NCBI RefSeq assembly: GCF_030540825.1
Contig: NZ_JAUOEO010000001.1
Coordinates: 469,001-533,000 of the forward strand
DNA: 64,000 bases
Direction: 5' to 3'
DNA from: Flavivirga spongiicola
GTDB lineage: Bacteria; Bacteroidota; Bacteroidia; Flavobacteriales; Flavobacteriaceae
The translations under genes and the position numbers were made by a program. Below are positions 4,145-17,961 of this stretch, one piece after another. A model generated the notes under the pieces. It was not told the DNA's origin and ran no database searches. It saw nothing but the letters and a program-made list of their open reading frames with translations. The number at the start of each line of letters is the position of its first letter. Position 1 is the first letter of the stretch.

Positions 4145-4512
4145 ACCAAGTCACTATTCCATCATTAGATGTCGAAAAAGCAATGGCATTTTATAAAACC
4201 TTGGGATTGCATCTTATTGTTGATGCGATCCCAAGATATGTACGATTTGAATGCCCTGATGGAGACAGTACCTTTTCAATTCATAAAGTAGATGCTTTAC
4301 CACAAGGTGACGGTATTACTCTTTATTTTGAAGATGATAATCTCGATAATTTAGTTTCTAATGTCAGAGAAAAAGGTATTAGTTTTACACAATTACCTGA
4401 AGATAAATCGTATTTATGGCGTGAGGCACGTTTACGGGATCCAGATGGTAATAACATCATTTTATTTCATGCTGGAAAAAACAGAAAAAATCCGCCATGG
4501 CGTATAAATTGA
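4135..4512 (+). CDS. VOC-superfamily (glyoxalase/bleomycin-resistance type) protein
   Basis: 125 residues forming one vicinal-oxygen-chelate module pair: VTIPSLDVEKAMAFYKTLGL at the N terminus and the typical closing LRDPDGNNIILFHAG near residue 105. Members bind a divalent metal and act as lyases, dioxygenases or drug-binding proteins; the size fits a single-domain dimeric member. The start codon lies inside the end of the MFS gene, which implies translational coupling. An exporter next to a VOC protein is compatible with resistance to a reactive or toxic compound, but that is inference. Which metal ligands are kept cannot be decided without an alignment. Confidence 0.85.
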   Translation: MDLNQVTIPSLDVEKAMAFYKTLGLHLIVDAIPRYVRFECPDGDSTFSIHKVDALPQGDGITLYFEDDNLDNLVSNVREKGISFTQLPEDKSYLWREARLRDPDGNNIILFHAGKNRKNPPWRIN

Positions 4513-4538
4513 TTATCAATAACTTATACAGATTCAAG

Positions 4539-5288
4539 ATGAAACAGATTATATTACTTTTTATTTCAATTTTGATTGTTGGTTGTAATTCTTCAGAAAA
4601 AAAGACAACTAATGAGGTACTTCACGTTATTCAGAATGACAAAGTATTTCCTAAATTGGAACCGAATCGTTACAATGTCGCTTTCCTAATTATGGATGGT
4701 GTTTATAACACCGAATTCACGGCTCCTTTCGATATTTTTCAGCACACCATTTTTAGAGATAGTATTAAAGCCATGAATGTGTTTTCCGTCGCCAATACAG
4801 ATGAAGCCATTACTAGCTTTGAAGGTATTAGAATACTTCCTGATTTTAACTATACAAAAGACTCATTACCAAGCATTGATATTCTTGTTGTTCCAAGTGC
4901 AGAACATCATTTAGATTCTGATTTGAAAGATAAAATCATGATTGATTTTGTTAAACAAGTTGATAAAAATGCGCAATTTATGACGTCTCATTGTGATGGT
5001 GCTTTTGTTTTAGCTAAAGCAGGGTTACTTAACAACGCTGTTTCTACAACATTCCCAAGCGATATTGACGAAATGAGACATATGTTTCCCAAATTAGATA
5101 TTAGAAAAGAAGTGCTATTTGTTCATGATGGGAAATATATCACCTCAGCTGGTGGTGCCAAAAGTTTTGAAGCCGCTTTATATTTATGTGAATTACTCTA
5201 TGGAAAAAAAATAGCACAATCTATAGCTGGAGGTTTAGTGATTGACTGGGATTTAAACAAAGTGCCCCATACTGTTATACCCCATTAA
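4539..5288 (+). CDS. DJ-1/PfpI family lipoprotein
   Basis: 249 residues from ATG 4539. This start gives a clean lipoprotein signal (MKQIILLFISILIVGC, Cys16), whereas the in-frame ATG at 4497 would put 14 extra residues before it and overlap the VOC gene. The DJ-1/PfpI (class I glutamine amidotransferase-like) fold shows in YNVAFLIMDGVYNTEF, and in the nucleophile elbow TSHCDGAF with Cys142. DJ-1 relatives include isonitrile hydratases, glyoxalase III-type deglycases and the sensor half of AraC regulators. A membrane-tethered exported version is uncommon. Its stop codon overlaps the stop of a decayed convergent hydrolase gene. A broken second copy of its 3' quarter lies at 16407. Confidence 0.85.
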   Translation: MKQIILLFISILIVGCNSSEKKTTNEVLHVIQNDKVFPKLEPNRYNVAFLIMDGVYNTEFTAPFDIFQHTIFRDSIKAMNVFSVANTDEAITSFEGIRILPDFNYTKDSLPSIDILVVPSAEHHLDSDLKDKIMIDFVKQVDKNAQFMTSHCDGAFVLAKAGLLNNAVSTTFPSDIDEMRHMFPKLDIRKEVLFVHDGKYITSAGGAKSFEAALYLCELLYGKKIAQSIAGGLVIDWDLNKVPHTVIPH

Positions 5289-5575
5289 ATAGTGTCTAAC
5301 ACTTTTTTAAATGCTTCTTTTTTTGATGTATTTTGACAGTTCCGGTGCATTTAAGTATAGCCCTTATTATCTAAACCCTTATCCATAGCTTTTTTTAAAT
5401 TAATAAGCACTTCTTCTTCGTTATTTAACAAGGTATAATCTAAGGCCAATCTTAAAAAACAAAAGATCTATCAGGAAATAAAACGGCATTTAGTTTATAA
5501 CAATAAAAAGCTTTTTCAATATTGTTTATTCGTAATTGATTCTGTCCAGTTTCATAAGTTAATGCAAATTATAGA
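5098..5575. repeat. Direct repeat DR-L (left copy, about 478 bp)
   Basis: This block aligns end to end with 16407-16883 in the same orientation, with about nine in ten bases identical by eye and several small indels. It holds the last third of pfpI (intact here) and the C-terminal part of an alpha/beta hydrolase gene (broken here). The two copies are 11.3 kb apart and bracket the whole polysaccharide locus 1. Confidence 0.9.
5285..5575 (-). pseudogene. Remnant of the alpha/beta hydrolase gene (C-terminal about 97 codons)
   Basis: Reading leftward, this matches the last 97 or so codons of the intact hydrolase at 16591-17961, including its ending (V-L-D-T-I here, V-L-D-S-I there). Single-base indels, for example near 5352-5365, break the frame, and there is no upstream part: homology ends abruptly near 5575. 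The stop codon (TTA on the plus strand at 5285-5287) overlaps the pfpI stop at 5286-5288, so the ancestral genes converged with overlapping stops. Confidence 0.85.
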
Positions 5576-5729
5576 CATGCATGCCGTTAGAAATATAGCT
5601 CAATCTCCTGCAAGCGTGTGGGTAATTGACGGAACACCAGTGCTATTTTTCTGTTGGAATGAAAGTTGAAAAAAACTGATTGATAACTTAGAAATTATTT
5701 ACGTTGAACTCATGCTAAACTAAGACATA
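5576..5729. other. Unassigned spacer next to the left repeat
   Basis: 154 bp between the end of DR-L and the regulator gene. It contains a short plus-strand open stretch from ATG 5577 to TGA 5667 (about 30 codons) with the string VWVIDGTPV, which loosely resembles the V-I-D-G-x-P-V of TonB-receptor plug domains. It is too short to identify and may be a fragment left by the rearrangement that created the repeats. Confidence 0.3.
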
Positions 5730-8700
5730 TTATCCCTTATTACTTATGCTTTCATTAAGGTTATAATCATTCAAGAATTCGACCATATCGGTATCTTTAG
5801 ACAGTTTTCTAAATAATTTTGGAGATACATTAAATTCTTTTTTAAAACATTTAGAAAAATATTTAGAATCGTTAAATCCAACTTTATAAGCGACTTCCGA
5901 AATAGAATAATCATGTTTGCAAATAATTATGGCTGCTTTTTTTAGCCTAATCAACCTTACAAATTCCACCAATGTTCTACCGGTTAAGGCAACACATTTT
6001 CTGTATAAAGTTGTCTGACTCATTTTTAATTTGTTTGCCAGACAAGACAAATTAAATTCAGGATTTTGAATTTCACTTTCTATCTCAAGAACAATCTTAT
6101 GCAATAGTATTTCGTCTGTAGATTTCGCAATTTCCACTTTAGGAACACTAATAAATTCTCTTTTATATTTATCTCTAATTTGTTCACCTGTAAAAATTAT
6201 ATTCTCAACTTTTAATACCAGTTCATTAACACTAAATGGCTTATTAATGTGTTCTATAGCACCAGCTTTTAACCCTTCTACTTTTGTGTTTAGATCATTA
6301 TCTGAAGTCATTAAAATAATGGGGACATGAGACAAAACCTTATTATTTAGTATTTTTTTACACATCTCTAAGCCGTTTATCTTTGGCATTATAATATCAC
6401 TAATAATTAAATTTGGGGTATGTTTTATAGCTAATTTTAATCCTTCAAGCCCATCTTCTGCCAAAATAATTTCGTAATTAGCTTTAAATACATCAAATAA
6501 AAACATTTGAAGTTCATAATTATCTTCAACAATTAAAATTGTATGCCGCTTGTTTGTTTCTGATAGATAAGTATCATTCAAATTAGCAGAATCTTTTATA
6601 ATATTATCAAAAGAACTTAATTTAGAATCTTGAATAACTAATTTTTCCTCTTCTGAATATACATCTTTTAGGGGTAAACAAATTTTAAACAAAGTCGTAT
6701 TTGAATTTGAAAACGCTGTAATTGATCCATAGTGTAACTCAACGAGTTCCTTAGTTAGTGCCAACCCAATACCACTCCCTTTAATTTTACTTCCGGCTTT
6801 AGATTGATAGAACATCTCGAAAATTTTGCTAAGATCTTCTTCAGAAAGAGGAGCCCCTGAATTTGAAATTTTAATTTCAACCCTTTCATTATATAACCTA
6901 ACATCAAAACAAATTTCGCCAAATTTAGGGGTGAACTTAAATGCATTAGAAAGAACATTATATAACACATGTTCTATTTTATCTCTATCGTACCATAAAT
7001 CTAAACCTTCTGAAGGCATATTTACTCTAAAGTCTATATTTTTTGAGTTTGCATGATCTTCAAAAGAAAAAACGATCTCTTTCAAAAGCTCCACAAAGTC
7101 ATTTTTAGCAACCCGCAACTTTAATTTCCCAAGTTCTCTGTTTCTGGCAATTGTTAATTTAGAAGCAATATGTGATAATCTTTTAGCATTATTGTAAATA
7201 GTTTTAAACCTTTGATTAATTATTAGTGAATCATTATTAAACCCAGAACTAATTAACCTCTCGATCGGACCTAGAATTAATGTAAGTGGTGTTTGAATTT
7301 CATGAGACATTTTTGTAAAAAAGTCCATTTGTATTCTATGCAGTTTTTTTTCATTATTATTTCTAATTTCTTCCTTGTATAACTTATCTTTTAAAGATAC
7401 CCATTTACTAAAAGCATAAACTGTTAAAAGGCCTATTAAAACATAAAATACGTAAGCCCAAAAACTTAACCACCAAGGATTTATAACTTGTATCGCTATT
7501 TCTTTTGGTTTTAAATTCCAAGTTCCTTGTTTTGTGCCTGCTCTTAGTCTAAATCTATAATCTCCAGGAGGAATATTCGTATAAACTGCTTTTAGTTCGT
7601 TATCTGAATGTATCCACTCTTCATCAAACCCTTCCAATTTATAGGAATAAAAGTAATTGGGATTTAATACACTGCCAATAGCAGCAAACCTAAAAGAAAT
7701 TGATGATTGATTATAAGATAATTTAAGTTGCTTTACATTTTCAATACCATTCGAAATTTGTTTTGGAATAACCGTACTTGCAGATTTATTTAATATCTCT
7801 ATAGCACTTATATTCAACTTCGCTTTTACCTCTCTTTTTTCTAAATCTCTCGGATAAAATGCATCAAGACCATTTTTGCCACCAAAATAAATTTTCCCAA
7901 GATTATCTATAAATGAGCTTCTACTCATAAAAACATTACTATGAAACCCATCAATTAACTTATAATTCTTAGAAAGAAGGCTTTTGTTATTAAAGTGCCA
8001 AACACCTTGATCTGAACTTAACCAAATATTATTTTCATCTTCAATCTTAACACATTTTAAGTTGATTCCATCAAACGGTTTATAATCAATAAACCCCTTT
8101 ATTTCCTCAGATTTAATATTGTAATCATAAAGTTTCCCATTTGTAACAATCCATAGGTCTTCTTCAAAAGTCGCCATAGATTCAATAGAAAAATTTTCAT
8201 TAACAGTATCTCCTAAAAAAGAGGATTTACTAAAATTAGATAATCTCAGATCAGATATATTTTCATTAAATTTAAATAGTCCTCCTTCATTAAATGCCAC
8301 CCAAATGGTTCCATATTTATCTTCTAGAATACTTTGAGAAATTGCGCCTTTTAAACCGTGGGAATTAACAGGAAAACTAGCCAAGATTTTTTTATTATGA
8401 CTGTAAATATCTATTGAAGTATTTGTTGAAATCCACATTCTGTTTCTAGAATCTTTAAAAAGATATCTCACCTCAGAAATTCCCTGACTTTTATCCTTTT
8501 TCGTATTAAGTTTGGAGAAATGTTTGTTTTCAGAATGATATACCCATAGTCCATTTTGGTAAGTTCCCACCCAAATATCATTATTAGAATCTTCCCCTAT
8601 AGTAAGTACATAAATACCTTTATTGCGATTTTTATCAATTGAATAATTTGTAGCTTTTTCACTTAATAAATCAATTTTAGTTATGCCTTCACCACTGGTA

Positions 8701-9803
8701 CCTATCCACAGTTCGTTTAAACTACTTTTATAAACTGAAATGGCTCTAATTGATAAATCTGATTCTGTTCCGGTATAGTATTCGATCGTGTTATCTGTAT
8801 ATGGTAAAACATTAATATTCCCATAATGTGTTAAAACCCACAAGTTATTACTTGAATCTTCATTTAAAGACAATATGGTATTTGTGCTCAAAGAATATTT
8901 ATCTATCGGATTGTATTTAAAATGATCTAATTTTACGTGATTTAGATCTAGTTTATACAAACCTCCGCCATCTGTTCCAAAGTATAAGTTATTGTAGCTA
9001 TCACAAAAAATTGAAATAAAAGCTTTACTCTCAAAGGTATCTGTAAGCTCCTTATAACTGGTGTTCTTCCTAAATATGCCATTTTTGAACTTATAACTAA
9101 AAACGCCTAAGCCCCATACTCCTATCCATAAGTTATCATCTTTATCAATGGTAATAACCATTTTTTCTGATGAAGAATTAAACTTAGTCTTTAATTCATG
9201 TAATACCTTATCTTGCAATGAAAAAACAAAAAGCTCATTTTTATTTGTTTTAAAATATATGGTGTTTAAACTGTCTTTTAAGATATCTTCAATATCCGGA
9301 TTAAACGTATTAATCACCTTTTTTAAGGATTCATTTTCAATAGTATAGCTATAGATCCATCCATTATAATCTGCAATCATTAATTCTTTAGCAAATGAAA
9401 CAATGGCTTTGACCTTAAAGGAGATTAATGGCTCAGAACCGCTATTAACAGCCTCAAATAATCCTTGCTTATTTTGTCTTGCTAATAACCCGTTTTTTAA
9501 TTGTATCCAGATTTTCCCTTGATAGTCTTTAATTATTTTTCTTATGGACTCATTTTTAAATGCATCATCAAGTGTTAATTTATAATCGATTAAAGTATAA
9601 GAGTAGCCATTGTATTTAATAAGCTTATTGTCACTTACCAACCAGAAATTATTAAAGTCATCTTCTAAAACTTGGCCAATACGATAATATTTTCCATTTA
9701 CAGTTACAGATAACTTTTCAAAGTTAGATTTTGATTGTCCACTTAGATTAAGACTAAATACTCCCAAGAAAATTATCAAAAAAAACAGTTTAATGAAATT
9801 CAT
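5730..9803 (-). CDS. Hybrid two-component system regulator (HTCS) of PUL 1
   Basis: A 1357-residue one-protein sensor-regulator. Order: signal peptide (1-22); two seven-bladed propellers of Reg_prop repeats (about 30-660, many D-x-x-x-N-x-W-v-G/S blades); a Y_Y_Y domain (about 690-770); a membrane helix (about 780-805); HisKA with the phospho-acceptor in MSHEIQTPL (about 833); HATPase (about 930-1035, KGSGIGLALTK); a receiver domain with Asp in LIISDIIMP (about 1134); and an AraC-type HTH (about 1235-1335). HTCS proteins sense oligosaccharides in the periplasm and activate the adjacent susCD operon. It is divergent from susC across a 470-bp spacer, the usual arrangement, so it very probably controls PUL 1. 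Confidence 0.96.
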   Translation of the reverse strand: MNFIKLFFLIIFLGVFSLNLSGQSKSNFEKLSVTVNGKYYRIGQVLEDDFNNFWLVSDNKLIKYNGYSYTLIDYKLTLDDAFKNESIRKIIKDYQGKIWIQLKNGLLARQNKQGLFEAVNSGSEPLISFKVKAIVSFAKELMIADYNGWIYSYTIENESLKKVINTFNPDIEDILKDSLNTIYFKTNKNELFVFSLQDKVLHELKTKFNSSSEKMVITIDKDDNLWIGVWGLGVFSYKFKNGIFRKNTSYKELTDTFESKAFISIFCDSYNNLYFGTDGGGLYKLDLNHVKLDHFKYNPIDKYSLSTNTILSLNEDSSNNLWVLTHYGNINVLPYTDNTIEYYTGTESDLSIRAISVYKSSLNELWIGTSGEGITKIDLLSEKATNYSIDKNRNKGIYVLTIGEDSNNDIWVGTYQNGLWVYHSENKHFSKLNTKKDKSQGISEVRYLFKDSRNRMWISTNTSIDIYSHNKKILASFPVNSHGLKGAISQSILEDKYGTIWVAFNEGGLFKFNENISDLRLSNFSKSSFLGDTVNENFSIESMATFEEDLWIVTNGKLYDYNIKSEEIKGFIDYKPFDGINLKCVKIEDENNIWLSSDQGVWHFNNKSLLSKNYKLIDGFHSNVFMSRSSFIDNLGKIYFGGKNGLDAFYPRDLEKREVKAKLNISAIEILNKSASTVIPKQISNGIENVKQLKLSYNQSSISFRFAAIGSVLNPNYFYSYKLEGFDEEWIHSDNELKAVYTNIPPGDYRFRLRAGTKQGTWNLKPKEIAIQVINPWWLSFWAYVFYVLIGLLTVYAFSKWVSLKDKLYKEEIRNNNEKKLHRIQMDFFTKMSHEIQTPLTLILGPIERLISSGFNNDSLIINQRFKTIYNNAKRLSHIASKLTIARNRELGKLKLRVAKNDFVELLKEIVFSFEDHANSKNIDFRVNMPSEGLDLWYDRDKIEHVLYNVLSNAFKFTPKFGEICFDVRLYNERVEIKISNSGAPLSEEDLSKIFEMFYQSKAGSKIKGSGIGLALTKELVELHYGSITAFSNSNTTLFKICLPLKDVYSEEEKLVIQDSKLSSFDNIIKDSANLNDTYLSETNKRHTILIVEDNYELQMFLFDVFKANYEIILAEDGLEGLKLAIKHTPNLIISDIIMPKINGLEMCKKILNNKVLSHVPIILMTSDNDLNTKVEGLKAGAIEHINKPFSVNELVLKVENIIFTGEQIRDKYKREFISVPKVEIAKSTDEILLHKIVLEIESEIQNPEFNLSCLANKLKMSQTTLYRKCVALTGRTLVEFVRLIRLKKAAIIICKHDYSISEVAYKVGFNDSKYFSKCFKKEFNVSPKLFRKLSKDTDMVEFLNDYNLNESISNKG

Positions 9804-10273
9804 ACTTAAAACTTAAAATCAATAGGAATTATTAATCAGTAATAAAATTCGGGGATTTGGAAAACTATTTAATAAATTAATAAAATAACCACTAGAAGCT
9901 TTATAAAAAGTGTACGTTTTCGACTTTATGGTGGTTAAAATGAACAAATAAATCAAATTGTCAATTTCACACACCCATTTGTTCGAATCCTCTTCCTGTC
10001 TCTCGGAATTATTAACCAAATTCGTCTTCGAGTTCAAAAAATAATTGTGCTGAAAAAATTCAATTGAAACCTCTTTCTTTTAAATATAAGGAATTTTAAT
10101 GTATTCCAATAACCGCACTATCAATGAGCTATTAGAATCAAATAAATATTTGTTTAAAAAACCATTAATCATGGTATTCTACTTTATAGAAGAACATTTA
10201 TAGGATTACAAGGAAATCAAGTAAAAAGGCAACTTAATAACTAAATAATGAATTCTAATTAAAACTTTACTGT
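9804..10273. promoter_or_regulatory. Divergent control region between HTCS and susC
   Basis: A 470-bp AT-rich spacer with no convincing gene; both genes fire outward from it. HTCS operator sites and the susC promoter must lie here by position. I see no perfect TAnnTTTG box close to either start, which fits promoters that depend on an activator. No palindrome stands out. Confidence 0.5.
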
Positions 10274-13200
10274 ATGAAAAAATTAATGAATAAAGGATTA
10301 CTTATACTTTCATTGGTATTAACATTTTCAGTGCATGCACAGGAAATATCAGTCAATGGAATTATTACTGATGCTACAGGACAACCCTTACCAGGAGCTT
10401 CAGTTGTAGTAAAAGGAACAAACAATGGCGTTTCTTCAAATTTTGATGGGAAATATAGTATTAAAACAAACACTAGTGACACTCTTATTTTTTCTTTTAT
10501 AGGTTATTTAACCCAAGAAGTTCTTGTTTCTAATAATAATACAATAGATATTGTTTTACAGGAAGATACAAGTATTTTAGATGAAGTTGTTATAGTTGGT
10601 TATGGTACACAGAAAAGAGAAAATCTTACAGCTGCTGTTTCTAGTGTTAACTTAGATAAAGTAGATGCCAAACCAATCACTAACTTAGGACAGGCATTGC
10701 AAGGTATGTCGGCAGGAGTTACTTCAATTCAATCCAGCTCTCAACCAGGATCCAGTGGATCTAGCATTAGAATTAGAGGTCTTAATACATTAGGCACAAC
10801 AAATAATACGCCGCTAATCGTTATAGATGGTTCGGTTGGAGGGTCTTTAAATGATGTTGCTCCGGGCGATGTCGCATCCATCTCTATTTTAAAAGATGCT
10901 TCTTCCACAGCCATGTACGGTGCCAGGGCAGCAGCCGGTGTTATTTTAATAACTACTAAAAGAGGGAAGTCGGGAAAAATGACTTTTAAATATGATGGTT
11001 ATGTTGGATTTGACGAGGCTACAGAACTACCAGATGTTATTTCCGATTCGGCAACTTACATGGAATTGCTTAGAGAATGGACCAATGATCCTGCATTCCC
11101 TTCAGATGCCCTTATTGCAGAATTCCGAAACGATGGAGGAGCCAATCCTTTAAAATACCCAAATGTAGATTGGTTTGAAACTATTATGGGAGGACAAGCG
11201 GCATTACAGTTTCATAACTTTAGTGTAAGCGGAGGTAGCGAAGCTGCACGAGTTGCGGCATCTGTTAATGTCTTAGATCAAGATGGATTAGTGGCTAATA
11301 CTGGATACAAGAGAATAGGGTTTCGTTTAAATACTAATTTTAAGCTTTCGGACAAATTAGACGGAGGTATGGATTTGTTTGGAAACAACTCACTAAGAAA
11401 AAGCCCAGGAGGTAGCATACAAAATCTAATTCCTAACATTCATTCAACCGTACCTTATACAGTTCCCATTAATAATGGCTTATATGGCTACGACGGGTGG
11501 ACTGGTTCTGGAGGACATAATCCTTTGGCACAAGTAAATTCTAGATACCATGAGAGGGAAACCAATAAGTTTACGGGAAAAATATTTGGAACTTACAAGT
11601 TCTTGCCTAATTTAAAATTAACAGCTTCAGCTACGGTATATAATGCTCAAAGCAACGCTATAGATTTAGTTAAAAAATTAACGCTGCATCACTTTGAGGA
11701 TGATTCAGAGGAGATTGCTAGAACTAATAATGAATTAGAAGAATCAAATTCAAGAAATAGAGTTATTACATTAAATGCTATTTTAGAGTATGATACCACT
11801 ATTAAGGAAAAGCATAATATTTCTTTGCTGGCTGGATACTCTCAAGAAGAAAATTTATGGAATACATCTTCAGCTTCTGGAAAAGGTCTAGTAGACGAAA
11901 GTATTTTTGTATTAGATGGCCCACAAGATCAAACGTCTTTTCAAATAGGAGGTAACAAAACCTTTAATAATTTGCGTTCTTATTTTGGAAGGCTAAACTA
12001 TGATTTTGATGGCAAATACCTTTTAGAAGCAAGCTTTAGATACGATGGATCTTCAAAATTTGTAAAAGATTTACGTTGGGGATTCTTCCCTTCTTTATCC
12101 CTTGGCTGGAATATACATAAAACAGATTTTTTAAGTCATGTAGATTTTATTACATCACTAAAGCTTAGAGGCTCTGTAGGACAGGTAGGAAATAATACTA
12201 GTTTAGGAAACTACTCTGCAATTTCCACTTTAGAGTTTGGAAATAACTATTCTTTTAACAATTCTATTGAGCCTGGTATTTACCTTAACGAACTGGCAAA
12301 CCCTGAATTAATTTGGGAAACCACTACGACTTATGGCATAGGAATAGATTTCGGGTTATTCAATAATAAAATCACTGGAGAATTTGATATCTATAAAAAT
12401 AGAACCGATGGGATTTTAAGAAGAGTACAGGCACCTTATTTTGGAGGAATACCTCAATCGCCTTTTGAGAATCTAGCAATAGTAGATGGTAAAGGTTATG
12501 AACTATCTCTTAACTATAGAAATAGTGAGCATAAAATTAAATATTCGGCAGGACTCACCTTATCACATTCTGAAAACAAAATTGTTTCATTTAATGATGG
12601 TCAGTTTCAGGAAGTTTCTGGTAACTATATAAATAAAGTAGGGCACCCTATTAATTCTATATATACTTATGAGCATGAAGGCATATTTAGAACACAAGAA
12701 CAGATTAACAACCATGCCACACAACCTCAAACGCCTCAAATAGGAGATCTTATATATAAAGATCAGTTAACAGTAGATACTAATGGGGATGGTGTTTTTG
12801 ATGAAGCCGATGGAGTTATTGACTCTGATGACCGTGTAATTAAAGATCCTTCTGCACCAAAAATAAACTTTGGTTTAAACACAAATGTAGAATATAATGG
12901 ATTTGACTTAAACGTATTACTTGTAGGTGCTTTAGGTAGTAAAGATTTTGTTAGAACGTCTCCAGCCAGACCTTTTATTTATCCAGGTCGTGGTATTACA
13001 GGAAAAGAATGGATACATGCTTATCATGAAACTAGAAATCCAGATTCTAATACAAATGTTCCGAGATTGGATGAAGGTTCAGGAAACTTTAGAGCAAGTG
13101 ATTATTGGATGCATGACTTTAGTTTCCTTAGAGTTAGAACCTTACAGTTTGGCTATACAATTCCAGAAAATATTGCTAATAAATTAACGCTGTCAAAAGC

Positions 13201-13327
13201 ACGTTTATACGTCAATGGCCAAAATTTATTCACATTCGAAAATGTACCTCACTTTGATCCTGAGAGTGTTGGACGGGTTTATCCTTTAACTAAAACAGTA
13301 ACATTAGGAGTTCAATTAACCTTTTAA
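10274..13327 (+). CDS. SusC/RagA-type TonB-dependent glycan importer
   Basis: 1017 residues. Signal peptide (1-22, ending in SVHA-QE), a CarboxypepD_reg-like domain (about 25-105, VNGIITDATGQPLPGASV), then the SusC hallmark DEVVIVGYGTQKRENLTAAV at the TonB-box/plug junction, a plug domain (PLIVIDG, IRIRGLNTLG) and a beta-barrel closing in the aromatic terminus TLGVQLTF. It imports oligosaccharides captured by SusD through the outer membrane, powered by TonB-ExbBD. susD follows 16 bp later and an HTCS regulator is divergent upstream, so this is a complete polysaccharide-locus core. The glycan cannot be read from the transporter. Confidence 0.97.
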   Translation: MKKLMNKGLLILSLVLTFSVHAQEISVNGIITDATGQPLPGASVVVKGTNNGVSSNFDGKYSIKTNTSDTLIFSFIGYLTQEVLVSNNNTIDIVLQEDTSILDEVVIVGYGTQKRENLTAAVSSVNLDKVDAKPITNLGQALQGMSAGVTSIQSSSQPGSSGSSIRIRGLNTLGTTNNTPLIVIDGSVGGSLNDVAPGDVASISILKDASSTAMYGARAAAGVILITTKRGKSGKMTFKYDGYVGFDEATELPDVISDSATYMELLREWTNDPAFPSDALIAEFRNDGGANPLKYPNVDWFETIMGGQAALQFHNFSVSGGSEAARVAASVNVLDQDGLVANTGYKRIGFRLNTNFKLSDKLDGGMDLFGNNSLRKSPGGSIQNLIPNIHSTVPYTVPINNGLYGYDGWTGSGGHNPLAQVNSRYHERETNKFTGKIFGTYKFLPNLKLTASATVYNAQSNAIDLVKKLTLHHFEDDSEEIARTNNELEESNSRNRVITLNAILEYDTTIKEKHNISLLAGYSQEENLWNTSSASGKGLVDESIFVLDGPQDQTSFQIGGNKTFNNLRSYFGRLNYDFDGKYLLEASFRYDGSSKFVKDLRWGFFPSLSLGWNIHKTDFLSHVDFITSLKLRGSVGQVGNNTSLGNYSAISTLEFGNNYSFNNSIEPGIYLNELANPELIWETTTTYGIGIDFGLFNNKITGEFDIYKNRTDGILRRVQAPYFGGIPQSPFENLAIVDGKGYELSLNYRNSEHKIKYSAGLTLSHSENKIVSFNDGQFQEVSGNYINKVGHPINSIYTYEHEGIFRTQEQINNHATQPQTPQIGDLIYKDQLTVDTNGDGVFDEADGVIDSDDRVIKDPSAPKINFGLNTNVEYNGFDLNVLLVGALGSKDFVRTSPARPFIYPGRGITGKEWIHAYHETRNPDSNTNVPRLDEGSGNFRASDYWMHDFSFLRVRTLQFGYTIPENIANKLTLSKARLYVNGQNLFTFENVPHFDPESVGRVYPLTKTVTLGVQLTF

Positions 13328-13343
13328 AAAAAATACAGATATA

Positions 13344-14906
13344 ATGAAAAAAATATTTTTAAATATTGTATTAATGGCATTTTTATTTATCTCTTGCTCT
13401 GATGATTTATTAGAACAAGTCCCGAATAATAAACTGTCTACTGAAAACTTTATTCCAAATTTGGCATTAACTGCCGTTTATGACGGGTTACAACATAATT
13501 TCACGGGCCTTTCCTGGATGTGGCAAATGGGATATTCTCCATTGGCATCAAACAGATATGATGCCGATCAAAGATTTAACGGCAATATAGAATCTGGTGT
13601 TGGATTAGATCCTTCTACTAGAGGGTTTCAAAGATTTTGGCAAGGGAATTATGAATTAATTTTTAAAGCTAATTTTTTCTTAGATAATGCAAAACCAACG
13701 GAAGATTTCGATCAAAATGAGATTGACAATTTTATTGCTCAAGCTAAATTTATTAGAGCTTTTGCTTATAGTCAATTAGCAGTGTTCTTTGGTGATATCC
13801 CACTACAATTAACTTCAAAAACACCAGTATCTGAACTGAGAGAAGTTGTAAAAAATAGCAAAGCAGAAGTTATTGAACAAGTATTAAAAGACTTAGACGA
13901 AGCTATTCCTAACTTACCGGTTAACGTAGAAAAAGGTCGTATTTCAAAAGGTGCTGCCTTAGGATTAAAAGCACGTGTATTACTTAGAGAAAATGATTAT
14001 CCAGGAGTATTAGCAGCTACAAATCAAATTATAGATATGGGAATTTATGGGCTATTCGGAGAAACATCGCCAGGTGTATTTGCTCCAAATGCGTATAAAG
14101 ATTTATGGAAATTTGAGAATGAGGGAAGTGAAGAGGCTGTTTTTGATATTCAGTTTGAAGGTCCCAACCTAAATGAAGGACAAGCTTACGAAACTTATGG
14201 GAGTATGAGAACAGCGCGTGTAGGATACGAATGGTTTTGGGCTACTAAATTTCTTGTAGATCAATATGAAAATATTGACGGAACACCTGTAGATACTGCA
14301 CCATACGCTTTTGATGATGCAAGATTTCAAGGTCGCGATTATAGGTTTGGAGCTACAATAACCTACCCAGGAAAACTGTTGTATAATGGACAAATATGGG
14401 GCCCTGGCTATCCCATTTATGCAAGGGCAAAAACAAACTTATTAATAACAAAATACGTTTGGGAAACTGATGATGCGAGTATAGCAGGTGTATTCGATTC
14501 CCCTATTAATTATACCTTAATTAGATATGCAGACATTTTATTAATGAATGCAGAAGCAAAAATTGAAACCAATGATATTGCAAATTCAGGACCGAACTCT
14601 GCTATTAATTCAATTAATAGCATTAGAGCTCGTGGAGGGCTACAGCCAACAACGGCAACAACTCAAGAAGAACTGAGAGCTGCTGTTAGGCAAGAAAGAA
14701 AAATTGAATTTGTTGGCGAAGGTTTATATATGTTTGATATTAGAAGATGGGGAATTGCCGACGTAGAAATGGAAAGAGATGTAGAAAGATACGATGGTTT
14801 AGTTACCCACCCTCGAACATATTCTCCAAAACTGTTAGAATGGCCAATACCACAATACGATATAGATAATACAGAAGGGTTAATTCAAAACCCTCTATGG
14901 CAATAA
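13344..14906 (+). CDS. SusD/RagB-type glycan-binding lipoprotein
   Basis: 520 residues with a lipoprotein signal (MKKIFLNIVLMAFLFISC, Cys18). The N-terminal SusD-like TPR region contains FIAQAKFIRAFAYSQLAVFFGDIPL, and the C-terminal part shows the family ending (RQERKIEFVGEGLYMFDIRRWG, then LLEWPIPQYDI and a final NPLWQ). It sits on the cell surface as a lid on the SusC barrel and binds the incoming glycan. Spacing to susC (16 bp) implies one transcript. Nothing is missing or truncated. Confidence 0.97.
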   Translation: MKKIFLNIVLMAFLFISCSDDLLEQVPNNKLSTENFIPNLALTAVYDGLQHNFTGLSWMWQMGYSPLASNRYDADQRFNGNIESGVGLDPSTRGFQRFWQGNYELIFKANFFLDNAKPTEDFDQNEIDNFIAQAKFIRAFAYSQLAVFFGDIPLQLTSKTPVSELREVVKNSKAEVIEQVLKDLDEAIPNLPVNVEKGRISKGAALGLKARVLLRENDYPGVLAATNQIIDMGIYGLFGETSPGVFAPNAYKDLWKFENEGSEEAVFDIQFEGPNLNEGQAYETYGSMRTARVGYEWFWATKFLVDQYENIDGTPVDTAPYAFDDARFQGRDYRFGATITYPGKLLYNGQIWGPGYPIYARAKTNLLITKYVWETDDASIAGVFDSPINYTLIRYADILLMNAEAKIETNDIANSGPNSAINSINSIRARGGLQPTTATTQEELRAAVRQERKIEFVGEGLYMFDIRRWGIADVEMERDVERYDGLVTHPRTYSPKLLEWPIPQYDIDNTEGLIQNPLWQ

Positions 14907-14941
14907 TCTTCACATTTGAGTTAGTTTAATTTTATTGACTT

Positions 14942-14965
14942 GGGGTAGTAATACAATACTATCCC
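14942..14965 (+). terminator. Hairpin after susD
   Basis: GGGGTAGTA and TACTATCCC pair around a 6-nt loop, with one G-U pair. It lies 36 bp after the susD stop but has no following T run, so it is more likely an mRNA-stabilising or partial-termination hairpin between susCD and the glycosidase gene than a full terminator. Confidence 0.4.
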
Positions 14966-15108
14966 AGGTTAATTTTCTTAACGGTTAGTATGCCCAAAAA
15001 TTAAAGCTTATTCAATTCTCCCTTTATAGAAACAATTAAAAATGAATTATTACAAATAAAAGATTCAGCTAAGTTAAAAATCAACAAAAATAAAGCGAGT
15101 AACTATCA

Positions 15109-16167
15109 ATGAAACCAATTAAATTTATAATTTATAGTTTATTATTCTTTAATTTTACTATAGGGCTTTCCCAAGTATCAACCGATGATTTAACTATATC
15201 TAATAATCTCGCACCTTTATCTCCTAACAATATATTTAAAACAGAAGGTTATTATAATTGGGGCGGGTCCATATTGAAAAGTCCTGACGGGAAATATCAT
15301 CTATTTTATTCTAGATGGGAAAAAAAATACACCTTTTCAGGGTGGTTGACTCATTCAGAAATTGCTCATGCAACATCTGATAATGCTTCTGGTCCCTGGA
15401 CGTATGTTTCCACAGTTTTAAAAGGTAAGCGAAAAAATACCTGGGATGCTATTGCTGCACATAGTCCCAAAATTAAATTCTTTAATGGCAAATATTATCT
15501 TTACTACACATCTACAAATTTAGAAGATAAAAATATCTCTGACAAAGAATTACTTAATATAGCAACCAAAGGGCCTAACCATCCGTTATGGTATAAAGCC
15601 TTACGTCCAAATCAACGAACTGGTGTGGCTGTATCTAATTCCATTTGTGGTTCTTGGAAACGAATGAAAAACCCTTTAATAGAACCTTCCGGCCCCATTA
15701 GTACACTTGCTATAAACCCAGCCATATCCAAAGGAAAAGACGATAAATTCTATTTAATTGTTAAAGGAGATAAACCCAACGAAAAGAAGTTTATTAGAAA
15801 CCAGGCCATTGCCATTTCAGACTCGCCTACCGGTCCTTTCACCATTCATAACAAACCTGTTATAGACTATATAGGAGCAGAAGACATGTCCATTTGGTAT
15901 GACGAAACACGTAAACGTTTTTACGGTGTATTTCATGCTCACACTTTTATTGGACTTATTAATTCTATAGACGGAATAAATTGGTCTAAAGCAGATGACT
16001 ATATTTTAATGCTTCAATCGTTAAAAATGAGTAACGGATCATCTTTAAATCCCTACTCTATTGAAAGACCATTTATTTATATTGAAAACAAAAAGCCAAA
16101 AGTTATCAGTCTTGCTGTTTTAGACCATAATGAGGCATATTCTGTATTTATCCCCATATATGAATAA
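15109..16167 (+). CDS. Secreted five-bladed beta-propeller glycosidase (GH43/GH117-like)
   Basis: 352 residues with a signal peptide ending near residue 22 (LSQ). The repeated blade pattern G-K-Y-H/Y-L-F/Y-Y-S (DGKYHLFYSRW about 63-73, NGKYYLYYTS about 124-133), SPSGPW/SPTGPF-type turns and acidic positions (WDAIAAHSP, GAEDMSIWYDE about 262-272) are those of the GH32/43/62/117 propeller superfamily. Such enzymes cleave arabinose, xylose, fructose or anhydrogalactose ends; the exact family and substrate cannot be fixed by eye. As the only glycosidase beside susCD it is the best clue to the PUL 1 substrate. It is separated from susD by 202 bp, so it may have a promoter of its own. Confidence 0.8.
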   Translation: MKPIKFIIYSLLFFNFTIGLSQVSTDDLTISNNLAPLSPNNIFKTEGYYNWGGSILKSPDGKYHLFYSRWEKKYTFSGWLTHSEIAHATSDNASGPWTYVSTVLKGKRKNTWDAIAAHSPKIKFFNGKYYLYYTSTNLEDKNISDKELLNIATKGPNHPLWYKALRPNQRTGVAVSNSICGSWKRMKNPLIEPSGPISTLAINPAISKGKDDKFYLIVKGDKPNEKKFIRNQAIAISDSPTGPFTIHNKPVIDYIGAEDMSIWYDETRKRFYGVFHAHTFIGLINSIDGINWSKADDYILMLQSLKMSNGSSLNPYSIERPFIYIENKKPKVISLAVLDHNEAYSVFIPIYE

Positions 16168-16406
16168 TACATCGTTTTATAGTTTTGGAATAAGTACCCT
16201 GCAACCAACCTCTTAAATCTCACTACTAATTTGTCTGCTTTTTTCTTGCAAGTTCGCCCATTTTCTTTACAGCAAAAAGGAAAGTCTTTCATTGAAATGC
16301 TAACTAATCGATAGAAAGGAAAATTAGTGAGGTTTGTATATTTTAGGCAAGTTTTTTAAAGCTATTATGAACCATTCATTAATAGTTTGTAGGTACGCCG
16401 TAATTT
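16168..16406. other. Spacer between glycosidase gene and right repeat
   Basis: 239 bp without a convincing gene. An imperfect inverted pair (CTCACTACTAATTT near 16217 and AATTAGTGAG near 16322) is present but weak. This is the junction where the right repeat begins, and no IS end is recognisable. Confidence 0.4.
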
Positions 16407-16594
16407 TATTAGAAAAGAAGTGCTATTTGTTTATGATGGGAAATATATCGCCTCGGCTGGTGGTGCCAAAAGTTTTGAAGCTGCTTTATACTAATGTGAA
16501 TTACTTTATGGAAAAAAATAGCACAATCTATAGCTGGAGGTCTAGTGATTGACTGGGGTTTAAGTAAAGCTCCCCATTAGTTATATCTCATTAA
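16407..16594 (+). pseudogene. Remnant of the DJ-1/PfpI lipoprotein gene (3' quarter)
   Basis: Matches the last 63 or so codons of the intact gene at 4539-5288. It has no 5' part. A TAA interrupts it (TAC TAA here against TAT TTA in the intact gene, near 16490), and a run of A has lost one base (7 against 8, near 16513), shifting the frame. It still ends at the position equivalent to the intact stop, overlapping the convergent hydrolase stop at 16591-16593. Confidence 0.88.
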
Positions 16595-16883
16595 ATGGAA
16601 TCTAACACTTTTTTAAATGCTTCTTTTCCGATGTATTTTGACAATTCCGGTGCATTTAATATATAGTCCTTATTATTAAAACCCTTATCAATAGCTTTTT
16701 TTAAATTAACAAGCACTTCTTCTTCATTATCTAACAAGGCATAATCTAAGGCCAATCTCAAAAAAACAAAAGATCTATCAGGAAATAAAACAGTGTTTAG
16801 TTTATGACAATACAGGGCTTTTTCAATATTGTTTATTCGTAATTGATTCTGTCCGGTTTCATAAGCTAATGCAAATATAGCAT
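16407..16883. repeat. Direct repeat DR-R (right copy, about 477 bp)
   Basis: Second copy of the block at 5098-5575, in the same orientation. Here the hydrolase half is intact and the pfpI half is decayed, the mirror of the left copy. Homology begins at TATTAGAAAAGAAG and ends at TAATGCAAAT, outside which the two loci are unrelated. Confidence 0.9.
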
Positions 16884-17961
16884 AGTTAATACGCTCACCC
16901 ATTTTTTTTAGATCATCATCTTCAGATAAAAGATATTTATTTCTGAAATTATCAAACTCTTTTTTCCACCATCTATAGTTGCTTTTGGTATTTCCAAACT
17001 CAAAATCAAATTTACTTTTAAAAGTATTCCTAATCTTAATTTCTAAACGCTTAATAGCTTCGCGTTTTTTAGTGTCACTTTTATATTTCTTACTTTTTTT
17101 TAAGGTCTTTGTTTTTAAAACTAAACTATCCAATTTAAAATGTCTTGAATAGTTTCTTATTATCCTTTCATATTCCCATACCGCCAGTTCAATTTGATTA
17201 TTATTTTCTAACAATTTGGCAGAGATATAGTTACTATCAAAAGCTTCCTTAACAAAAAGATTATCAGTAGATTTAATACCTTTTTTATACGCTTGAAGCT
17301 CTAACCAATCAAAAGCCTTTAGAATTTGATTAGAAGGAGGCCAACTATGATTTCCGCTGTATGTAAAGAGTTCATTATCAATATTAAATTTAGAGTACCA
17401 GTCTTTTACAGTAAACATTTCTTGGTAATTCATATCTTCGTCACCAACCAACCCAGCATACGAAAAAGTATCTATGGTCGGAACACGAGACCTGTTAGAT
17501 GGAAATCCAGCACCACAACCAATAATACCTTGAATTTGCTTTGTAAGTACAGCTACTGCTGTGGCTAATCTAGAGCCTCCAGAAAAACCCGCGGTGTATA
17601 TTTGATCTTGGTTAATATTAAAAATGCCAAATACCGTTACAAACAAATCATCTATTCTTTTTAAATTTTCATCAAAAGGACCATTTCGACAATTATTAGA
17701 ACAGATTAATATATAATTATGTTTTTCTGCTGCTTCAATAAAAGGTTGAATTCCTACCTTTCCTCTTGCAGCTGGTTCAAAAATAAAAACAATTGCAGAT
17801 GATTCTAGTTTATTAAACTCGGTTGGTAGATATAAGGCAAAAGTGTCTCCTGTATTTTTAACCTTTATAGAATCAATAATTTTTTGAGTTTCAAAATCAT
17901 TATTTTGTCCAATTAAAGAGCCAAAACTGAAGATAAAAATAAGAACAAAAAACTTAGGCAT
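16591..17961 (-). CDS. Secreted alpha/beta hydrolase (esterase-like) with TPR-like C terminus
   Basis: 456 residues with a signal peptide (MPKFFVLIFIFSFGSLIGQ). An esterase/dienelactone-hydrolase-like domain fills about 30-240: nucleophile elbow GFSGGS with Ser127, an acidic loop VGDEDMN (Asp174/176), and a candidate catalytic His205 in SGNHSWPP. The C-terminal half is helical, with TPR-like Leu/Ala spacing (about 370-440). It could remove ester substituents from the glycan handled by PUL 1, but it is convergent with that locus and its ancestral neighbour is pfpI, so the link is weak. Its last 97 codons are duplicated as a pseudogene at 5285-5575. Confidence 0.8.
   Translation of the reverse strand: MPKFFVLIFIFSFGSLIGQNNDFETQKIIDSIKVKNTGDTFALYLPTEFNKLESSAIVFIFEPAARGKVGIQPFIEAAEKHNYILICSNNCRNGPFDENLKRIDDLFVTVFGIFNINQDQIYTAGFSGGSRLATAVAVLTKQIQGIIGCGAGFPSNRSRVPTIDTFSYAGLVGDEDMNYQEMFTVKDWYSKFNIDNELFTYSGNHSWPPSNQILKAFDWLELQAYKKGIKSTDNLFVKEAFDSNYISAKLLENNNQIELAVWEYERIIRNYSRHFKLDSLVLKTKTLKKSKKYKSDTKKREAIKRLEIKIRNTFKSKFDFEFGNTKSNYRWWKKEFDNFRNKYLLSEDDDLKKMGERINYAIFALAYETGQNQLRINNIEKALYCHKLNTVLFPDRSFVFLRLALDYALLDNEEEVLVNLKKAIDKGFNNKDYILNAPELSKYIGKEAFKKVLDSI

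Follow-up and report, generated by a model that had tools for sequence, protein, structure and literature searches.

Insertion-duplication without the participation of an integrase very probably placed a polysaccharide locus (PUL 1) in the genome of Flavivirga spongiicola, and insertion-duplication is probably recurrent in this genome, as the same architecture surrounds a second, different SusC/SusD locus. PUL 1, here also referred to as case 1, lies in the window analyzed in this study, i.e., a 64,000-bp stretch of DNA (bases 469001-533000 of contig 1 of the 5.90-Mb, four-contig genome), between two copies of the junction of a pfpI gene and a convergent hydrolase gene (Table 1). What makes the arrangement interesting is not PUL 1 by itself but that it recurs within one genome and that the empty sites are known: two different PULs are situated between long direct copies of a host junction, and the empty sites are found in congeners.

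Table 1. Features of the PUL 1 locus (positions in the window) and of two further junction repeats of the genome (positions on contig 1).
Feature	Position	Strand	Length	Basis or remark
Intact pfpI, DJ-1/PfpI family, left partner of ancestral pair	4497..5288	+	263 aa	Pfam E 2e-16; adjoins hydrolase in G003
Left junction copy	5099..5574	+		pfpI 3′ end intact, hydrolase 3′ fragment decayed; alignment and polarised changes
Decayed hydrolase 3′ fragment	5288..5575	-	~287 bp	17/24 polarised substitutions of the hydrolase half and 4 indels
Inserted island	5576..16406	.	10,831 bp	Lacking in the colinear region of G003
HTCS (hybrid two-component system regulator)	5730..9803	-	1357 aa	Pfam
SusC-like TonB-dependent transporter	10274..13327	+	1017 aa	Pfam
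SusD-like lipoprotein	13344..14906	+	520 aa	Pfam
GH43 glycosidase	15109..16167	+	352 aa	Pfam
Degenerate copy of a dispersed intergenic repeat of the genus	16308..16402	+		Stops 4 bp short of the right junction copy
Right junction copy	16407..16880	+		pfpI 3′ fragment decayed, hydrolase 3′ end intact; alignment and polarised changes
Intact hydrolase/esterase-like gene, right partner of ancestral pair	16591..17961	-	456 aa	Orthologue search, source names, weak Pfam match
Case 2 junction repeat, lycopene cyclase-like/redoxin	contig 1 365590-365878 / 381267-381542		290 columns	Repeat scan
Case 5, metK 3′ fragment	contig 1 1433059-1433241 / 1438758-1438935		184 columns	One-sided

Local alignment of the two junction copies of PUL 1 yielded 478 columns, 430 of them identical and 6 containing gaps, which corresponds to an identity of 91.1% over the ungapped columns with 34 transitions and 8 transversions. 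A preliminary description, made from the sequence alone, had recognized two blocks of the same sequence and orientation and proposed that their divergence be estimated; the blocks are real, with ends that lie one to three bases away from those given there (5098-5575 and 16407-16883). Both copies represent the same convergent 3′-3′ gene boundary in direct orientation and span the final ~190 bp of pfpI together with ~287 bp from the 3′ end of the hydrolase gene; the stop codons of the two genes overlap when read in the sequence. Also as described beforehand, pfpI is whole and the hydrolase a fragment on the left, and the reverse applies to the right, where the ~190-bp pfpI fragment is disrupted by an in-frame stop as well as by a 1-bp deletion. 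When the four contigs of the genome (5.9 Mb) were searched for further copies, with 40 of 119 first-look candidates scored, the junction was found at these two places only, with neither a third copy nor the dispersed copies expected of a widely distributed element, which had been considered as another source of the repeats.

The open reading frames (ORFs) of at least 80 aa in the island are those of HTCS, SusC, SusD, and GH43, and no other ORF exceeds 79 aa. The Pfam assignments agree with the regulator, susC, susD, and glycosidase read from the sequence earlier, and with SusC and SusD adjacent and accompanied by a glycosidase and a regulator the island qualifies as a PUL. The name alpha/beta hydrolase given to the right-hand neighbor stands less firmly, as the Pfam match (Abhydrolase_2 at E 0.0055) is below the cut-off and thus gives weak support; the source names of some relatives of this protein are phospholipase/carboxylesterase or predicted esterase. 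The GH43 protein comprises 352 aa and the open frames of many of its closest relatives ~800 aa, so that a second domain was possibly lost or gained. The intergenic repeat next to the right junction copy occurs at several other places across the genus and, when traced as a clue to the mechanism, yielded none.

The state preceding the insertion is found in the congener G003 (Flavivirga eckloniae by protein name), which served as outgroup. Nucleotide comparison showed this genome to be colinear with positions 1-25000 of the window at about 80-84% identity, the insert excepted. The left flank together with the left block matches G003 through position 5575, the right block together with the right flank matches from position 16407, and both matches include the same 477 bp of G003, where pfpI (261 aa) and the hydrolase gene (456 aa) are adjacent, overlap by 4 bp, and lack the 10.83-kb PUL between them. 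The unsplit, PUL-free pair for which a comparison of related genomes had been suggested is therefore present in a colinear relative and, with one gene decaying on each side of the island, the earlier proposal of one ancestral pair split by an insertion with duplication of the junction is supported. A split arrangement with full-length genes on both sides was found in none of the 7 out of 11 congeners having a pfpI orthologue.

The hydrolase orthologue is present in G003 only among these congeners. The other six pfpI-bearing congeners show the order MFS-glyoxalase-pfpI-AsnC regulator with neither hydrolase nor PUL. In five of the six (loci L041, L043, L044, L045, and L046), the position next to pfpI and before AsnC that the hydrolase occupies in F. 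spongiicola and G003 is taken by an unrelated gene of about 165 aa. Outside the genus, three genomes (G012, G029, and G036) have pfpI as convergent neighbor of a more distant hydrolase from the wider family (26-28% identity), and pfpI is convergent with a closer hydrolase (45%) on a contig of a metagenome-assembled genome (L097). At five further loci, the two genes are at least 2.5 kb apart (two with AsnC or MFS nearby, two without) or pfpI is outside the locus. The adjacency across genera implies that the adjacent state is old and that the hydrolase was lost or exchanged more than once. The pfpI junction seems to be a site of repeated gene exchange.

Substitutions between the two junction copies were polarised with G003 as outgroup, which left three ambiguous. 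In the pfpI half, the spare copy on the right accumulated 12 substitutions versus 3 in the intact left copy; in the hydrolase half, where the left copy is the spare one, the counts were 17 on the left and 7 in the intact right copy. The spare halves hence hold 29 of 39 post-duplication substitutions (Fisher p 0.003 for the reciprocal pattern) as well as all six indels of the block, not counting one gap at its very end, where the right stretch was cut. Substitution rates amount to 6.4% and 5.9% in the spare halves and to 1.6% and 2.4% in the intact ones; the similarity of the former two fits one starting date, and the two spare halves seem to have been released simultaneously. A further 65 changes relative to G003 are common to both copies, indicating that the duplication of the junction postdates the split from G003 and was followed by decay of the spare halves. 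Of these shared changes, 44 of 65 are at third codon positions, compared to 11 of 29 in the spare halves (p 0.012), which are without clear coding constraint; for the hydrolase fragment alone, codon positions 1, 2, and 3 account for 9, 1, and 7 changes, respectively. Since the third-position bias is found in the shared changes and not in the spare halves, the divergence of the copies appears to be mostly post-duplication decay and not a difference between two working alleles.

In case 2, the repeats bracket 15,388 bp within the convergent pair of a lycopene cyclase-like and a redoxin gene, with a cargo consisting of a LacI-type regulator, SusC, SusD, a carboxylesterase, a PfkB kinase, an ADP-ribosylglycohydrolase, a permease, and a transaldolase. 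On the left, the whole lycopene cyclase-like gene is followed by a redoxin 3′ fragment; the right side has a 3′ fragment of the lycopene cyclase gene and, after it, the complete redoxin gene. The junction is contiguous in 9 of 11 congeners, where an unbroken match covers the lycopene cyclase gene and extends into the 3′ end of redoxin; the matches of G010 and G004 terminate before that end. In G003, for which both flanks were tested, they overlap by 269 bp. In cases 1 and 2 alike, the target is thus present once in the empty site and the insert is flanked by direct copies of it, with both target genes whole, one per side, and their spare parts beside the insert. Measured against the nine congeners, the lycopene cyclase half of case 2 has 5 substitutions in the spare and 0 in the intact copy, and the redoxin half 11 and 5, respectively, again a reciprocal decay (p 0.012). 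The case is uneven, as the lycopene cyclase halves are 96.5% and the redoxin halves 82.4% identical and the left redoxin fragment groups weakly with G003, G005, and G011 and not with the right copy, which requires gene conversion, faster decay, or a foreign piece. The intact left gene carries a 9-bp insertion at its stop. In case 5, a copy of the metK 3′ end (178 bp, 81%) is located on the far side of a 5.5-kb SusC/SusD pair; both copies match the metK 3′ end of G009, and the case is one-sided. The idea of a PUL gain without an integrase, put forward earlier for PUL 1, is strengthened by the second full case of this genome, the one genome that was scanned in depth.

The scan covered positions 109001-1773000 of contig 1 (1.664 Mb, 28% of the genome) and considered repeat pairs of at least 100 bp at distances of 3-40 kb. 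Seventeen of 54 same-strand pairs were not inside ORFs on both sides, 11 of the 17 having a single extra copy; for inverted pairs the corresponding numbers were 5 of 11 and 0. Chance is excluded by these 11 direct versus 0 inverted two-copy non-paralogous repeats in 1.66 Mb, only one of which reaches 478 columns. The 11 direct pairs comprise five in repeat-rich or paralogous stretches, two MITE-like ones, one unexplained pair (case 6, 392110/397817; 107 bp, 77%), and the three that consist of gene ends around SusC/SusD genes. Four are in a repeat-rich stretch at 1.23-1.28 Mb, and the copies of the pair at 1008012 overlap two ORFs of about 1100 aa over 89% and 98% of their length. Many short dispersed repeats, direct and inverted, are seen at 1233000-1275000. 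Case 3 (250285-250444/263810-263971, around SusC/SusD) and case 4 (1312765-1312933/1326796-1326963, around three large genes) were rejected as junction duplications and classed as MITE-like pairs because their copies have inverted ends (11/12 and 19/21 or 15/16 bases, respectively). The right copy of case 4 seems to interrupt the reading frame of a P-loop ATPase. Adjacent SusC-SusD pairs, defined by BLAST, number 15 in the scanned part, of which 3 are bracketed, 2 of them on both sides. A 310-kb scan of G003 found no inverted pair and two neighboring direct non-paralogous pairs, about 6.2-6.5 kb apart at 5315777-5323953 of its contig 1, which are perhaps a segmental duplication.

The PUL 1 locus itself is sporadic, as expected for a horizontally gained PUL. 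Among the best 120 of 7341 SusC matches, seven other proteins share at least 60% identity, the closest with 78% (P0002) and 77% (P0003) originating from metagenomes and one with 68% from an Arenibacter sp., and in 397 genomes including the own one (two candidates scored per genome) the next best SusC reached 39%. A metagenome protein (P0122) related to the hydrolase shows 86% identity. For SusD, the other 298 genomes yielded nothing at 1e-60 (at most five candidates scored per genome), and the GH43 relatives within the family are not in the same locus. A plasmid origin of SusC was not indicated by 72,556 plasmid records, where the best match was 34% and none reached 60%. Base composition gives no foreign sign either, since the G+C content of the island (0.319) equals that of the flanks (0.321 and 0.328), and a foreign origin is not supported on this basis. 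Among nine genes compared with G003, the hydrolase gene has the lowest synonymous divergence (0.56, compared to 0.83-1.55 for the remaining eight), and pfpI is 79.6-81.4% identical to its counterparts in G001, G006, and G008, with 84.2-89.1% for six flanking genes. Such sequence comparisons suggest that pfpI and the hydrolase gene, perhaps with the PUL between them, may have been imported through recombination in the flanks, with an unsampled relative as the source. The gene trees of pfpI are weakly supported.

Before the insertion, pfpI and the hydrolase gene were adjacent and convergent, with overlapping stops. The HTCS-SusC-SusD-GH43 locus was then inserted as a 10.83-kb piece with a direct duplication of 478 bp of the junction, which left both genes whole, and the two redundant 3′ fragments decayed afterwards. 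The locus may have arrived on a DNA circle that also bore a near-identical copy of the junction, presumably closed by ligation after uptake, and entered by one RecA-type crossover within the junction; conceivably, the pfpI-PUL-hydrolase block moved in later from an unsampled relative by flank recombination. That such events are seen at convergent 3′ ends follows from the fact that only there a duplication leaves both neighbors whole. We consider it somewhat probable that the history was an integrase-free event with the circle as its leading route, while the circle route taken by itself, given this history, falls just short of being probable. The circle is favored since it is the one route with an experimental precedent, in E. 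coli (PMC3240628). Speaking against it are the 65 shared changes and the low constraint in the spare halves: as both copies resemble the recipient's own sequence, the circle needs a near-identical source of the junction, either a near-identical strain or the recipient's own junction. No circle, donor, or intermediate was seen, the plasmid records having provided only SusC matches below 60%.

A one-step illegitimate duplication in place by template switching requires no junction-bearing circle. Here, repair or replication would have left the hydrolase 3′ end, copied PUL DNA, and returned 478 bp back in pfpI, so that a single event yields insert and direct repeat with no homology on the incoming DNA and with copies resembling the recipient's sequence at the time of the event, in line with the 65 shared changes. 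Repeat lengths that vary between cases (478, 290, and 184 columns) and edges without a shared motif also fit. The six edges of cases 1, 2, and 5, however, show no microhomology excess (longest shared runs of 3-5 nt in 12 at a random mean of about 3.2), which old events may have lost, and we know of no bacterial example of such size, which counts against this route as well; we regard it as rather unlikely, yet worth keeping in mind. Tandem duplications are common in bacteria, and replacement of the redundant middle of one (hydrolase copy 1 to pfpI copy 2) by PUL DNA, the 478-bp repeat being the leftover, would create the same gene map, with the redundancy explaining why it was tolerated. As this takes two events, at two loci and each time around SusC/SusD genes, and nucleotide comparison detected no other remnant of a larger duplication in the flanks, it is clearly improbable.

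The features common to the cases are direct orientation, whole neighbors, and differing repeat lengths, and no edge motif is shared among them. No tRNA gene was found in positions 1-26000 of the window or in the case 2 locus (contig 1 364500-383500), no integrase or transposase was found by Pfam in the 4 ORFs of at least 80 aa of PUL 1 or the 10 ORFs of at least 90 aa of case 2, and the window contains no inverted arms of at least 60 bp that could serve as terminal inverted repeats. Given the differing lengths and the lack of integrase, transposase, tRNA, and edge motif, neither a fixed-site recombinase nor a transposon with constant target duplication fits. Elements that restore the 3′ end of their target gene, e.g., phage 21 in icd, leave direct repeats and a displaced fragment. 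PUL 1 could in principle be what remains of such an element whose attachment site contained the gene 3′ ends and whose integrase has since been lost, and the dispersed repeat ending 4 bp from the right junction would agree with that. But the repeats cover two genes of a convergent pair, at two unrelated places and with differing lengths, and the scanned ORFs and regions lack the genes such an element would bring, which makes this origin highly improbable.

The acquisition mode is directly testable, as the empty site is known and the repeat predicts the excision products. An unlikely extension would be that PULs of this flavobacterial lineage are integrase-free circles that enter convergent gene ends through a single homologous crossover that duplicates the junction, with repeats permitting an excision that restores the host genes and the junction acting as a self-made attachment site for a unit having no recombinase of its own; if so, this would apply to 3 of the 15 SusC-SusD pairs of the scanned part, two of them two-sided and the third one-sided. 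Closely related marine Bacteroidota differ widely in their PULs, integrase-bearing elements account for only some PUL gains, and most island finders search for integrases and tRNAs. Such finders would miss the junction-duplication signature, which is simple and can be scanned for in any genome: each side of an island bears the redundant 3′ end of the convergent gene that is whole on the other side. Two PULs of the same structure in one genome hint at a repeatable gain that needs no dedicated integration enzyme.

Insertion-duplication is a known outcome of recombination and the transfer of PULs is well known: integrative and conjugative elements carry PULs, and Bacteroidota gain SusC/SusD loci horizontally. 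Unlike PULs borne by such elements, the DNA between the repeats described here was found to contain no conjugation, integrase, or transposase gene. Papers on PULs bracketed by long junction duplications were not found in the open-licence literature. A foreign module added naturally without an integrase, next to remnants of the earlier arrangement, resembles the homology-facilitated illegitimate recombination proposed for T6SS immunity arrays of Vibrio; in contrast to our cases, one-sided homology displaces a gene there, and the available part of that paper describes no two-sided repeat of a convergent junction (PMC5361080). The closest likeness is to the Campbell-type insertion-duplication of E. 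coli, in which the insert comes to lie between direct duplications of the homologous target. There, 56 of 60 Lac- clones from conjugation had the duplication product, the duplications of 14 sequenced clones measured 109-950 bp, a range covering all three repeats found here, and they were explained by incoming DNA that was cut, recircularised, and inserted by one crossover in a recA-dependent manner (PMC3240628). Whereas those experiments used laboratory plasmids, supplied homology, and selection (PMC3240628), the events in F. spongiicola are old and natural, carry PULs, and would draw on the junction homology of a putative source.
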